Source: Prevotella communis (lineage in GTDB: Bacteria > Bacteroidota > Bacteroidia > Bacteroidales > Bacteroidaceae). Taken from it: a stretch of 64,000 nt of DNA. How positions within the stretch are numbered: position 1 is the stretch's first letter; the number at the start of each line of letters is the position of its first letter. Where the stretch lies: positions 2,356,001 through 2,420,000 of the forward strand of contig NZ_CP091792.1 in NCBI RefSeq assembly GCF_022024115.1, written 5' to 3'. The notes beneath the pieces were generated by a model, which saw nothing but the letters and a program-made list of their open reading frames with translations, was not told where the DNA came from and did not search any database. Below are positions 6,557-10,749 of this stretch, piece by piece. The translations under genes and the position numbers were made by a program.

Positions 6557-6589
6557 TCCTAAAACAATTGTTTAAATTCGAATTCGGCT

Positions 6590-6598
6590 GCAAAGGTA
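6590..6598 (-). promoter_or_regulatory. Promoter -7 box of pheT-yebC
   Basis: TACCTTTGC on the minus strand, about 34 bases upstream of the pheT start. Confidence 0.6.
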
Positions 6599-6621
6599 CA
6601 AAATAAATTGCAATTAACGCC

Positions 6622-6665
6622 AAAAAAAATCTGATTATCCATTGCGAATAACCAGATTTTCTCGT
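6622..6665 (-). terminator. Terminator of the aromatic amino acid operon
   Basis: On the minus strand, AAAATCTG.TTAT pairs with ATAA.CAGATTTT and runs into a U tract, a few bases after the tyrA stop. Confidence 0.8.
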
Positions 6666-6669
6666 TTTT

Positions 6670-7464
6670 CTATCGCTTTATTTCAATGTCGCGGCGCACA
6701 TTGTCGCGAATCTTGGTGAGATAGCGCTTCATGGCGGCAGCATCTTTTGTGTCGATAATCTCGAGCAGCTCCTTTAATTCTGTACGGATTTGCGACACCT
6801 GATCGTGGGTGTAGGGGTTGAACAGGATTTCCTGCAACAGGTAGTCGTCCTCATTGAGCACGCCCTTGGCAATGCGCATGTGGCGCTTGAAGGTGGTGCC
6901 GGGCGCATCCTGATGTTTCATCACGGCCGCAAAGACAAAGGTGGAGACGAAGGGGATACTCAGCGAGTAGGCCACCGTCTTATCGTGCTCCTCGAAGGTG
7001 TACTCGTAGATGTTGAGCCCCAGCTTCTGGTAGAGGTCCTTGAAGAAGCAGCGCCCCATGCAGTCGCCCTCCTGGATGATGATGGCGTTCTCCTCTGACA
7101 GTTGCTGCAGGTTGGCAAACGTGGGTCCAAACATGGGGTGCGTGGACACGTAGCGCATGCCCGTCTGCTCGTAGAAGTCCTTCAGGTCGGTCTTCACGGA
7201 GGCTATGTCGCTGATGATGCACTCCTTGGGCAGATAGGGTATCACCTCCTGGAACACGGGGATGGTGTATTTCAGCGTCACGGCATTAATCAGCAGCTCG
7301 GGCTTGAAGGCCTGAATCTCTTCGTAAGTAGTAAACCGCTGGCAGTTGTAGGTGAAACGCATGCGCTTGGCATCGCGCTCGAACACAGCCACCTCGTGGT
7401 CAAAACTCAGCAGGTCGATGAAGAAACTTCCCATCTTGCCTGCTCCCATCACTAATATTCGCAT
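6670..7464 (-). CDS. tyrA: Prephenate dehydrogenase
   Basis: A 264-residue NAD(P)-dependent enzyme with an N-terminal Rossmann motif (MRILVMGAGKMG) and the TyrA motif STHPMFGP. It converts prephenate to 4-hydroxyphenylpyruvate, the committed step to tyrosine. It is the last gene of a four-gene operon and begins 3 bases after the DAHP synthase/chorismate mutase stop. No ACT domain is attached, so feedback control must act elsewhere in the pathway or through the operon attenuator. Confidence 0.92.
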   Translation of the reverse strand: MRILVMGAGKMGSFFIDLLSFDHEVAVFERDAKRMRFTYNCQRFTTYEEIQAFKPELLINAVTLKYTIPVFQEVIPYLPKECIISDIASVKTDLKDFYEQTGMRYVSTHPMFGPTFANLQQLSEENAIIIQEGDCMGRCFFKDLYQKLGLNIYEYTFEEHDKTVAYSLSIPFVSTFVFAAVMKHQDAPGTTFKRHMRIAKGVLNEDDYLLQEILFNPYTHDQVSQIRTELKELLEIIDTKDAAAMKRYLTKIRDNVRRDIEIKR

Positions 7465-7467
7465 TTC

Positions 7468-8532
7468 TTATTTGTTGATAATTTCAATCTGTTGTCTTAC
7501 ACTCTCTTCGTGGATGCCCTCGAAGACTTTTGCCACAAACTCGGAACCCATGCCCAGAAGCGAACCCTGCGCGCCTCGCTTGGCCAGAATCTCGTTGTAG
7601 CGCGAGGTCTGCAGCACGGTCATATTATGCTCTTTCTTATACTGACCAATCTCACGGCACACACGCATACGCTTAGCCAGGAGGTCCATCAACTGGTTGT
7701 CCAGTTCGTCAATCTGCTTGCGCAACTGCTGGATGCCTTCTGTGGTGGCGTGCTCGTCGCGGATAACGAGCAGCGAGAGGATATAGTCGAGCACATCGGG
7801 CGTCACCTGCTGGGCGGCATCGCTCCAGGCTTTGTCGGGGTCACAGTGGCTCTCCACAATCAGGCCGTCGAAGCCCAGGTCCATAGCCTGCTGACACAGA
7901 GGTGCAATCAGCTCACGACGTCCACCGATATGACTGGGGTCACTGATGATGGGCAGCTCAGGAATACGACGATGCAACTCGATAGGAATCTGCCACATAG
8001 GCATGTTACGATAGATTTTCTTGTCGTAGGAAGAGAAACCACGATGGATGGCGCCCAGACGCTTCACGCCTGCCTGATTGAGGCGCTCCAACGCACCAAT
8101 CCACAGTTCCAGGTCGGGGTTCACGGGGTTTTTCACAAACACAGGGATGTCAACACCCTTCAGCGAGTCGGCCAAAGCCTGCATAGCAAAGGGGTTTGCT
8201 GATGTACGGGCACCAATCCAAAGGATATCAATGCCATACTTCAATGCCAGTTCCACGTGCTCAGGCGTTGCCACCTCGGTAGAAACCAACATCTTCGTTT
8301 CCTCTTTCACCTGCTTCAGCCATTGCAAGGCAGGTTCGCCGTGACCCTCAAAGCCGCCTGGCTTCGTACGAGGCTTCCACACACCAGCACGGAAGTTGTG
8401 GCATCCTTTCATTGCCAACTGCTTGGCAGTGGTCATCACTTGTTCCTCGGTCTCTGCAGAACAAGGGCCTGCAATCACAAAGGGACGTTCATTGTCACTC
8501 GGAAGGTTCAGTTTTTCTAGTTCCAGTTCCAT
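7468..8532 (-). CDS. Bifunctional DAHP synthase / chorismate mutase
   Basis: A 354-residue fusion. Residues 1 to about 260 are a KDO8P-synthase-like (type I-beta) DAHP synthase (RPFVIAGPCSAETEEQV, GVWKPRTKPGGFEG). Residues about 265-350 are an AroQ-class chorismate mutase (LRKQIDELDNQLMDLLAKRM). It makes the first shikimate-pathway intermediate from PEP and erythrose 4-phosphate and converts chorismate to prephenate. Third gene of the operon, with a 3-base gap on each side, so the flux from entry step to prephenate is under the same attenuator. Confidence 0.95.
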   Translation of the reverse strand: MELELEKLNLPSDNERPFVIAGPCSAETEEQVMTTAKQLAMKGCHNFRAGVWKPRTKPGGFEGHGEPALQWLKQVKEETKMLVSTEVATPEHVELALKYGIDILWIGARTSANPFAMQALADSLKGVDIPVFVKNPVNPDLELWIGALERLNQAGVKRLGAIHRGFSSYDKKIYRNMPMWQIPIELHRRIPELPIISDPSHIGGRRELIAPLCQQAMDLGFDGLIVESHCDPDKAWSDAAQQVTPDVLDYILSLLVIRDEHATTEGIQQLRKQIDELDNQLMDLLAKRMRVCREIGQYKKEHNMTVLQTSRYNEILAKRGAQGSLLGMGSEFVAKVFEGIHEESVRQQIEIINK

Positions 8533-8535
8533 ATC

Positions 8536-9705
8536 TTATAATGCTTTTTTGATTCTTTCTAATGCTTCTTGTATCTTTTCCTCCTTGGCACACAGCGAGA
8601 TGCGGATATAACGCTCACCATTTGAACCAAAGATAAAGCCTGGGGTGATGAAGACGCGAGCCTCATGGAGCACACGCTCCGTCAGGTCTTCCACGTTCTG
8701 AATTTCAGCAGGTATCTTGCCCCAGAGGAACATGCCCACCTGATTCTTATCGTACGTACAGCCCAGCACATCCATAATCATCTCGGCCCACTGGCGACGA
8801 CGGGCATAGGTCTCGATGTTATATTCGCGATGCCAAGCCTCATCATTCTTATAGGCCTCGGCAGCTGCCAATTGGATGCCACGGAATGTACCACTCTCAA
8901 TATTGGACTGTACCTTCAGTATCCACTGGATGAACTGTGGATTTGAGGCACAGAGGCCCACACGCCAGCCTGGCATATTATGGCTCTTCGACATCGAGTT
9001 GAACTCAATACAGCAGTCCTTAGCGCCTGGTACCTGCAGGATGCTCAGGTGCTCCTCGCTCAGGATGAAGCTGTAGGGATTGTCGTTGACCACTACAATG
9101 TCGTGGTCCTTGGCAAATTTCACCAGGCGCTCATAGGTCTTCATCTGGGCACGACCACCCGTTGGCATATTGGGATAGTTGGTCCACATCAGCTTAACCT
9201 TCGAGAGATCCATCTTCTCCAGCTCATCGAAGTCAGGCTGCCAGCCATTATCCTCACGCAGGTTGTAGTTCACAATCTTTGCACCCAGAATCTTTGAGAG
9301 CGAGGTGTATGTGGGATAGCCAGGATTAGGCACCAGTACCTCATCGCCAGGATTCACGAAGGCCAGCGTCACGTGCAGGATACCCTCTTTGGAACCTATC
9401 AGGGGCAGCACCTCGGTCTTGGCGTCGATATCTACGTTATACCAGCGCTTATAGAACTGTGCCATAGCCTCGCGCAACTCAGGTGTACCCTGTGTAGGCT
9501 GATAGCCGTGTGCATTGGGCTGGTTGGCCACCTCACACAGTTTGTCGATGGTCTGCTTTGAAGGAGGCATATCCGGACTGCCGATGGCCAGTGAGATAAT
9601 ATCCTTACCTTCGGCATTGAGTTGTGCCACCTCCTTCAGTTTCCTGCTGAAGTAGTACTCCTGTACTAAACTTAATCTGTCTGCTGGTTGTATCATAATT
9701 ATCAA
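8536..9705 (-). CDS. Class I/II aminotransferase, probably aromatic
   Basis: A 389-residue PLP enzyme of fold type I. The Schiff-base Lys lies in SMSKSHNMPGWRVG (about 240), with YNVDID, NPGYPTY and the C-terminal Arg in RYIRISL. Its place between prephenate dehydratase and DAHP synthase suggests it transaminates phenylpyruvate and 4-hydroxyphenylpyruvate, or prephenate. The family also includes LL-diaminopimelate and aspartate aminotransferases, so substrate rests on context. Tandem GATTTGA heptads precede the ATG. Confidence 0.88.
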   Translation of the reverse strand: MIIMIQPADRLSLVQEYYFSRKLKEVAQLNAEGKDIISLAIGSPDMPPSKQTIDKLCEVANQPNAHGYQPTQGTPELREAMAQFYKRWYNVDIDAKTEVLPLIGSKEGILHVTLAFVNPGDEVLVPNPGYPTYTSLSKILGAKIVNYNLREDNGWQPDFDELEKMDLSKVKLMWTNYPNMPTGGRAQMKTYERLVKFAKDHDIVVVNDNPYSFILSEEHLSILQVPGAKDCCIEFNSMSKSHNMPGWRVGLCASNPQFIQWILKVQSNIESGTFRGIQLAAAEAYKNDEAWHREYNIETYARRRQWAEMIMDVLGCTYDKNQVGMFLWGKIPAEIQNVEDLTERVLHEARVFITPGFIFGSNGERYIRISLCAKEEKIQEALERIKKAL

Positions 9706-9728: not shown

Positions 9729-10559
9729 TCAAATCGCCCTATACTCTCCCAGGATTTTCAAATCACGTGTCAGGGGGATAATGGCATCCACCGCCTGACG
9801 GTAACGGGTCAGGTCGTTATAGGTCACATCCACATAGAACAGGTACTCCCACTCCTTGCCGATGATGGGCAATGACTGAATCTTTGTCAGGTTAATCTTA
9901 TAGAACGACAGGATAGCAAGTACTGCTGAGAGCGAACCCTCTTCGTGAGGCAGGGAGAAGACGATGCTAGCCTTGTTTGACTCCACGAGCGGACGCAGCA
10001 TGTCGGCTTTCTGAGGTGCCGAGCACACCAGGAAACGTGTATAGTTGTGCTTATTATCCTCGATACCGTTCTCCAGCACCTTCAGTCCATAGAGCTTTGC
10101 AGCCTCGGCATGACAGATAGCAGCCCATCCCTTATGGTGACCCTCGGCTATCATCTTGGCCGAACCTGCCGTATCGTCCCCTTCCACAATACGCAGATTG
10201 GGATGATGCTCTAGGTAGTGACGCGTCTGCATCAGGGCCACAGGATGAGAGTGCACCTCTGAGATGGTGTCCCAGTCGTCCTCTGGCAGACAACAGATGC
10301 AATGGGTGATGTGCAACTTATGCTCGCCCACCACCGTTGTACCACTGTCGCGCAGCAGTTCGTAGTTGTGCAACAGGCTGCCGGCTATCGTATTCTCGAT
10401 GGCGGCCATACCTATCACCGTTGGGTCCTGACGCATACTCTCATACACCTGTTCAAAGGTGTTGCAGCAAATCAACTGCAACTGTTCTCCCTCGAAATAC
10501 TGATGGGCGGCAATGTCGTGGAACGACCCGATCTCTCCTTGTATTGCTATTCTCTTCAT
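9729..10559 (-). CDS. pheA: Prephenate dehydratase
   Basis: A 276-residue monofunctional enzyme: dehydratase domain (1 to about 185, with AIENTIAGSLLHNYELL and the catalytic Thr in NYTRFLV), then an ACT domain (about 195-270, SIVFSLPHEEGSLSAVL) that normally binds phenylalanine for feedback inhibition. It makes phenylpyruvate. First gene of the operon. Its ATG lies only 5 bases after the U tract of a strong terminator (10565-10605), so expression depends on read-through of that attenuator. Confidence 0.95.
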   Translation of the reverse strand: MKRIAIQGEIGSFHDIAAHQYFEGEQLQLICCNTFEQVYESMRQDPTVIGMAAIENTIAGSLLHNYELLRDSGTTVVGEHKLHITHCICCLPEDDWDTISEVHSHPVALMQTRHYLEHHPNLRIVEGDDTAGSAKMIAEGHHKGWAAICHAEAAKLYGLKVLENGIEDNKHNYTRFLVCSAPQKADMLRPLVESNKASIVFSLPHEEGSLSAVLAILSFYKINLTKIQSLPIIGKEWEYLFYVDVTYNDLTRYRQAVDAIIPLTRDLKILGEYRAI

Positions 10560-10564
10560 ACTCT

Positions 10565-10605
10565 AAAAAGAAGCCCCACTTTCACTCTTCGTGAAGCGGG
10601 GCCTT
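10565..10605 (-). terminator. Attenuator (intrinsic terminator) before pheA
   Basis: On the minus strand, AGGCCCCGCTTCAC pairs with GTGAAAGTGGGGCTT around a 5-base loop, followed by CTTTTT and then, 5 bases on, the pheA start codon. The 5' arm CCCGCTTCAC (10600-10591) is also exactly complementary to GTGAAGCGGG inside the leader peptide gene (10661-10652), which gives a mutually exclusive antiterminator. Confidence 0.88.
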
Positions 10606-10638
10606 ATTTAATTTTTTCAATGTTACAACTCATCATTT

Positions 10639-10713
10639 TTACATACGACTACCCGCTTCACAATTGCTTGTAAAGTAATAATAAAAATAGAAGTATGCAT
10701 TAAATTTTATCAT
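10639..10713 (-). CDS. Attenuation leader peptide of the pheA operon
   Basis: A 24-codon frame starting MIKFNAYFYFYYYF and ending TSNCEAGSRM. Nine of the 24 codons are Phe or Tyr, seven of them in an eight-codon run (positions 7-14). It starts about 28 bases after a -7 box (10749-10741). The codons after the Phe/Tyr run contain the antiterminator strand. Ribosome stalling at Phe/Tyr codons would free that strand to block the terminator. This is the design of the E. coli pheL leader, here on an operon covering both the Phe and Tyr branches. Too short for standard gene calling. Confidence 0.85.
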   Translation of the reverse strand: MIKFNAYFYFYYYFTSNCEAGSRM

Positions 10714-10740
10714 TTTTGTTACTATTTGTTATTTTCGAGT

Positions 10741-10749
10741 GCAAAAGTA
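10741..10749 (-). promoter_or_regulatory. Promoter -7 box of the aromatic amino acid operon
   Basis: TACTTTTGC on the minus strand. The predicted transcript start, near 10738, places the leader ATG about 25 bases downstream. Confidence 0.7.

Follow-up and report, generated by a model that had tools for sequence, protein, structure and literature searches.

The pheL and trpL leaders of E. coli are ribosome-mediated attenuators that work through alternative 1:2, 2:3 and 3:4 folding of the leader transcript. Operons of the Bacteroidetes/Chlorobi group reportedly figured among the attenuation predictions made by Lopatovskaya, Seliverstov and Lyubetsky in 2010.

A conserved structured 5' element with no Rfam match lies before pheA in Flavobacterium psychrophilum and other Flavobacteriaceae, and strong clues for leader-peptide attenuation of amino acid operons were reported for F. 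psychrophilum in the same work (PMC9723704). The element shares phylum and gene with the locus described here but lies outside the Bacteroidales, and the portion of the article compared does not give its leader sequence, codon content or mechanism (PMC9723704). It is likely the same element as the Bacteroidales attenuator. Small open reading frames (ORFs) reminiscent of leader peptides have been described in B. thetaiotaomicron, with no hit for prephenate or phenylalanine in the main text (PMC7366714). PMC4833913 mentions Bacteroidetes in connection with how far a leader gene lies from its structural gene, and a term search of PMC2965389 returned no instance of "Bacteroid-". Our survey of literature titles and abstract openings, which mostly drew on sources other than subscription journals, found no described pheA attenuator in the Bacteroidales. 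The preliminary description of this DNA had known of no Phe/Tyr attenuator for a Bacteroidales aromatic operon; that survey agrees, but the claim to novelty is softened because the accessible text on the Flavobacteriaceae already reports the pheA element and the attenuation clues (PMC9723704). The attenuator is of a kind known from E. coli pheL and trpL, and in this phylum it has been partly anticipated.

We analysed a window of 64,000 nucleotides (the whole stretch of DNA under study) from a Prevotella genome that consists of one contig of 3.57 Mb. Inspection of the window placed the attenuator region on the minus strand, in the gap between a gene for a TPR protein and pheA. Compared with E. 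coli pheL-pheA (RF01859), the locus has the same pheA target, run of Phe codons and 1:2, 2:3 and 3:4 logic; unlike pheL, the Prevotella leader mixes Phe and Tyr, and the genes behind it add a DAHP synthase, an aminotransferase and a prephenate dehydrogenase. With E. coli trpL it shares three-way folding into protector, antiterminator and terminator, but it is directed at another amino acid, and the Prevotella genome has a separate candidate Trp leader. By far the best explanation of the sequence and comparative data is a ribosome-mediated transcription attenuator predicted to sense Phe and Tyr (probability roughly 0.92), as the preliminary description had proposed; the conserved leader, terminator, complementary arms and promoter all support this reading.

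Locus layout and parts of the predicted attenuator

Table 1. Features of the attenuator region and of the genes behind it, with positions in the window.
Feature	Position	Strand	Sequence or Pfam domain	Basis or remark
-33 element	10773-10770	-	TTTG	20 nt upstream of the -7 box
-7 promoter box	10742..10749	-	TACTTTTG	sequence inspection
Leader ORF	10639..10713	-	MIKFNAYFYFYYYFTSNCEAGSRM	ATG at 10713 to TAA; 24 codons, 9 Phe/Tyr
Regulatory codons 7-14	10672..10695	-	YFYFYYYF	inspection and base composition in relatives
1:2 protector structure	10641..10698	-		fold and comparative
Segment 2	10652..10661	-	GTGAAGCGGG	antiterminator 5' arm; exact complement of segment 3
Segment 3	10591..10600	-	CCCGCTTCAC	common to antiterminator (2:3) and terminator (3:4)
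Intrinsic terminator	10565..10604	-		hairpin 10604-10571, U tract to 10565; MFE
pheA, prephenate dehydratase (PDT)	9729..10559	-	PF00800	
Aminotransferase class I/II	8536..9699	-	PF00155	
DAHP synthase fused to chorismate mutase	7468..8532	-	PF00793 + PF01817	
Prephenate dehydrogenase	6670..7464	-	PF02153	

Base-by-base inspection found all of the anatomical elements claimed earlier on the minus strand (Table 1). The leader matches its preliminary description exactly in length and Phe/Tyr content, the 10 leader bases said to be complementary to the 5' arm of the terminator are so without exception, and the U tract ends 5 nt before the pheA ATG, base for base as claimed. Pfam domains bore out the assignment of the DAHP synthase entry enzyme, both branches and the aminotransferase to the genes downstream of the leader; the four genes would form a single transcript. 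The PDT protein has 276 residues and is identical in Prevotella communis E15-14 and in an uncultured Prevotella.

At the upstream end, only 16 nt lie between the stop codon of the TPR gene and the -33 element (window 10790-10773). No terminator was seen there by eye, and any readthrough out of the TPR gene would traverse the attenuator too. At the downstream end, a hairpin rich in T lies in the 113-nt gap between prephenate dehydrogenase and pheT (window 6557-6669), as does a TANNTTTG box; pheT was therefore set aside as a member of the attenuated operon and, in spite of where it lies, is probably a unit of its own.

Conservation of the Phe/Tyr leader and its promoter

At genus, family, order and class rank, samples were searched for PDT matches that had 250 nt or more of upstream sequence, each of the 37 order loci coming from a different family, and a leader was scored as an ATG ORF of 10-50 codons, within 450 nt, with at least six Phe/Tyr in 10 codons. 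Rows L088 (9 nt upstream), G187 and L133 (duplicate genome) were left out. A leader was present at 94/99 loci in the genus, 51/58 in the rest of the family, 33/37 in the rest of the order and 13/23 in the rest of the class, where the other 10 had none by this criterion; in other classes of the phylum it was found at none of 28 loci, which represent the best-scoring of 77 matching genomes. On a subset of 140 loci, dinucleotide shuffles scored 8 times in 2800 and the reverse strand 4 times in 140. The leader frame and its Phe/Tyr codons, on whose conservation the preliminary description had staked its case, are kept at 178 of the 194 PDT loci from Bacteroidales other than the host genome; terminator, complementary arms and promoter are conserved as well. 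A leader was also found at 75/80 loci of a named collection that includes Prevotella communis E15-14, Xylanibacter brevis ATCC 19188 and Prevotella ruminicola KHT3, which is no independent count because this collection overlaps the main set.

Within a subset of Bacteroidales loci, the leader was present at 70/71 with an aminotransferase gene on the same strand in the flank examined and at 10/18 without one, the latter including L088 with its short upstream stretch. One locus, L048, has the aminotransferase and no leader by our criterion. Of the seven loci without a leader at family level, four (L033, L035, L043 and L044) have a distant PDT of 28-30% identity that adjoins a stretch of 50-81 residues similar to the DAHP synthase/chorismate mutase protein; for this reason they probably represent another gene, perhaps a chorismate mutase-PDT fusion.

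Phe and Tyr occur together in every leader from the genus (94/94), family (51/51) and class (13/13) and in 31/33 from the order. A short predicted ORF with conserved codons for the products of the pathway stands where a trpL- or pheL-type attenuator would have it. Of the 1780 codons in tracts chosen for their Phe/Tyr content from the leaders of 178 relatives, 1514 begin with T, 1493 have A or T in the middle and 1652 end in T (957) or C (695). The same tracts hold 1450 Phe/Tyr codons in frame 0 and 441 and 242 in the other frames, a count that is biased because the tracts were picked for frame 0. Trp codons were seen in 5 genus, 3 family, 11/33 order and 3/13 class leaders (for example L063, L124 and L135), hinting that distant relatives might sense all three aromatic amino acids.

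A structured leader followed by a terminator would at first look much the same if the RNA itself bound a metabolite or tRNA, as a riboswitch or T-box, and the short ORF were incidental. Such a reading is barely credible here: the part that recurs is a reading frame of Phe/Tyr codons, no Rfam family was matched at gathering score anywhere in the window, and at a relaxed threshold none of the seven matches in the stretch was a riboswitch or T-box. Two of the sub-threshold matches lie over the attenuator (10564-10706, minus strand): Phe_leader, RF01859, which at 19.6 bits (E 0.48) against a gathering score of 55 does not take in this locus as a member, and the Bacteroides sRNA GibS, at 19.3 against 115 bits.

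The box before the leader, which we take to be an instance of the Bacteroidetes-type -7 promoter motif TANNTTTG, agrees with the promoter claimed earlier, and its position is kept in relatives. With rows of less than 260 nt upstream dropped, 85/90 loci of the genus, 48/50 of the family, 23/32 of the order and 6/13 of the class have the motif between -85 and -12 relative to the leader ATG; in a control stretch lying farther upstream the figures are 2/90, 2/50, 1/32 and 1/13. The idea that the terminator is a leftover of the upstream TPR gene was ruled out because this conserved box and the leader stand between them.

Similar leaders were looked for elsewhere in the host genome. No leader-like ATG ORF of 8-60 codons was seen upstream of hisG, ilvD or thrA; an Ile-rich ORF before thrA was rejected, as a TANNTTTG box follows it and it resembles the tail of some other gene. 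In the trp operon, trpB appears to come first; before it stands a candidate leader, MKQLFNAWWWRNSRFK (L258, C1:1321911-1321861, minus strand), with a TACTTTTG box upstream and a strong hairpin and T run behind it, which makes it a candidate Trp attenuator.

Mutually exclusive folds and their coevolution

The terminator between leader and first gene folds with an MFE of -22.6 kcal/mol (z -4.8) and the antiterminator that excludes it with -20.9 kcal/mol (z -4.2); in neither case did any of 200 shuffles fold as well. Behind the leader, a hairpin plus T run passing the cutoff of -12 kcal/mol was found at 84/94 loci of the genus, 50/51 of the family, 33/33 of the order and 11/13 of the class, compared with 8/282, 3/153, 5/99 and 3/39 shuffles. 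In the data set used for the arm swaps below, a hairpin with a T run follows 180/191 relatives' leaders (84/94, 50/51, 33/33 and 13/13 by rank), the criterion failing in 10 of the 94 genus and one of the 51 family leaders. Two close relatives, L261 and L265, keep the leader and the hairpin upstream of PDT, but their U tract has changed, and they may be losing attenuation.

Only 11 nt separate the end of the 3:4 hairpin from the start of pheA, and with the U tract so near the ATG in the host genome the hairpin might mainly block initiation of translation instead of terminating transcription, a role that mutually exclusive folds would serve equally well. Against this, the T run recurs with the hairpin in the 180 leaders just mentioned, and the distance from hairpin to ATG varies: the first ATG of L318 is 31 nt past the T run and L329 has none in the 27 nt inspected past it. 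We consider translational control of this kind very unlikely.

Antiterminator pairing was compared between each leader's own terminator arm and foreign arms, in windows unfitted to pairing and with the 10 genus and one family terminator-less leaders left out. Median energies for own and foreign arms were -15.1 and -9.7 kcal/mol in the order and -14.0 and -11.1 in the class; the differences in the genus (-20.5 versus -18.7) and family (-17.5 versus -16.0) are small because the arms are too alike. An alternative 2:3 swap, with windows fitted to the own arm, is biased.

Covariation was scored on an alignment of 64 sequences, hand-picked from 93 non-redundant ones at own, genus and family loci, against the structure of the window's own sequence. 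On that structure the 2:3 helix was paired in 89.4% of cells, with 23 double-changed cells against a shuffle mean of 8.8 (0/500), and 1:2 plus 3:4 in 84.9%, with 118 against 41.9 (0/500), of which 91 fell in 3:4 and 27 in 1:2. Other measures gave no excess for 1:2 plus 3:4, either in pairs changed on both sides (14 versus 13.4 in shuffles, 240/500) or in pair types (43 versus 44.7, 419/500), and no clear excess in pair types for 2:3 (11 versus 9.3, 71/500). When slid by -2 columns, 2:3 reached a covariation score of 0.144, compared with 0.131 in place, with 52% of cells paired. One position in segments 2, 3 and 4 reads A-U-A in 34/64 sequences and G-C-G in 12/64; this triple change shows the signature that mutually exclusive folds would leave.

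The preliminary description had held that every part of attenuation was present. The parts it named were there; it overlooked the 1:2 structure, which would complete the classic set of protector, antiterminator and terminator. The inner helix is an 8-bp hairpin, CUUUACAA-GCAA-UUGUGAAG (10675-10656), that spans the final Phe codon together with the 5' portion of segment 2; the outer helix, GCAUAC/GUAUGU (10698-10693 with 10646-10641), encloses the Phe/Tyr codons. In the window's own sequence the 1:2 region is unremarkable by energy (-16.9 kcal/mol, z -0.36, 69/200 shuffles as good), and it is on comparative grounds that we recognise a protector overlapping the regulatory codons. Each helix is paired in 70-88% of cells in the 64-sequence alignment. 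In a swap test that left out the terminator-less leaders (10 genus, one family) and four order and one family rows with a misplaced segment 2, the outer helix coevolved: own and foreign values in the order (n = 29 families) were -8.69 and -5.99 (p 7e-5), compared with p 0.41 and 0.25 for two negative-control regions. Coevolution of the inner helix was weak beyond the genus (family p 0.005, order p 0.034, class p 0.21).

The last Phe/Tyr codon lies a median of 10-12 nt from segment 2 at every rank, with interquartile ranges within 8-13, while the position of the stop codon ranges widely. Given the size of the ribosome's footprint, its leading edge would come to lie at about this distance when that codon occupies the A site. 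This near-constant gap is what an attenuation mechanism would need.

The leader peptide might instead act in trans or as a nascent-chain arrest peptide, and not as a passive sensor of tRNA. Its end, NCEAGS, recurs within the genus, and a trans role has been reported for a leader peptide (PMC7298713). The stop codon, however, comes no later than segment 2 in 3/84 leaders of the genus, 9/49 of the family, 9/29 of the order and 3/13 of the class, which for that reason lack the peptide end, whereas the RNA sequence GAGCGGG persists in family members such as L040, L055, L219, L220, L226 and L234. The order of the Phe/Tyr codons also varies among relatives. Conservation as a peptide was ruled out for the tail of the leader on account of the shifting stop codon, and we regard a function of the peptide itself as highly improbable.

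Proposed regulation and its significance

Since the arrangement recurs in most of the relatives sampled from the order, the leader very probably senses Phe and Tyr by means of a stalling ribosome. The signals would be charged tRNA-Phe and tRNA-Tyr, and the target the operon of pheA, aminotransferase, DAHP synthase/chorismate mutase and prephenate dehydrogenase. When either amino acid is scarce, the leading ribosome would stall within codons 7-14, cover the 5' side of 1:2 and halt just short of segment 2, which would then be free to pair with segment 3; no terminator would form and the polymerase would continue into pheA. When both are plentiful, the ribosome would reach the stop codon and either cover segment 2 or leave the 1:2 structure to sequester it. 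With segment 2 masked, the 3:4 terminator would form and transcription would end in vivo near 10565. Each of the two amino acids would elicit a response independently of the other.

On balance, we lean towards a broader view, in which attenuators of this type act as OR gates for Phe and Tyr, and occasionally Trp, throughout the class Bacteroidia, the spacing of 10-12 nt reflects ribosomes that closely follow RNA polymerase, in a phylum whose translation initiation leans little on Shine-Dalgarno pairing, and one leader governs the entry enzyme and both branches. Attenuation requires translation to match the pace of transcription, and the attenuator would therefore serve as a ready reporter of whether the two are coupled in Bacteroidota. 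Because every Rfam model stays below its gathering score at this locus, the 64-sequence alignment could seed a new RNA family. For Prevotella and its relatives, the locus offers a concrete candidate, conserved among them, for sensing aromatic amino acids.
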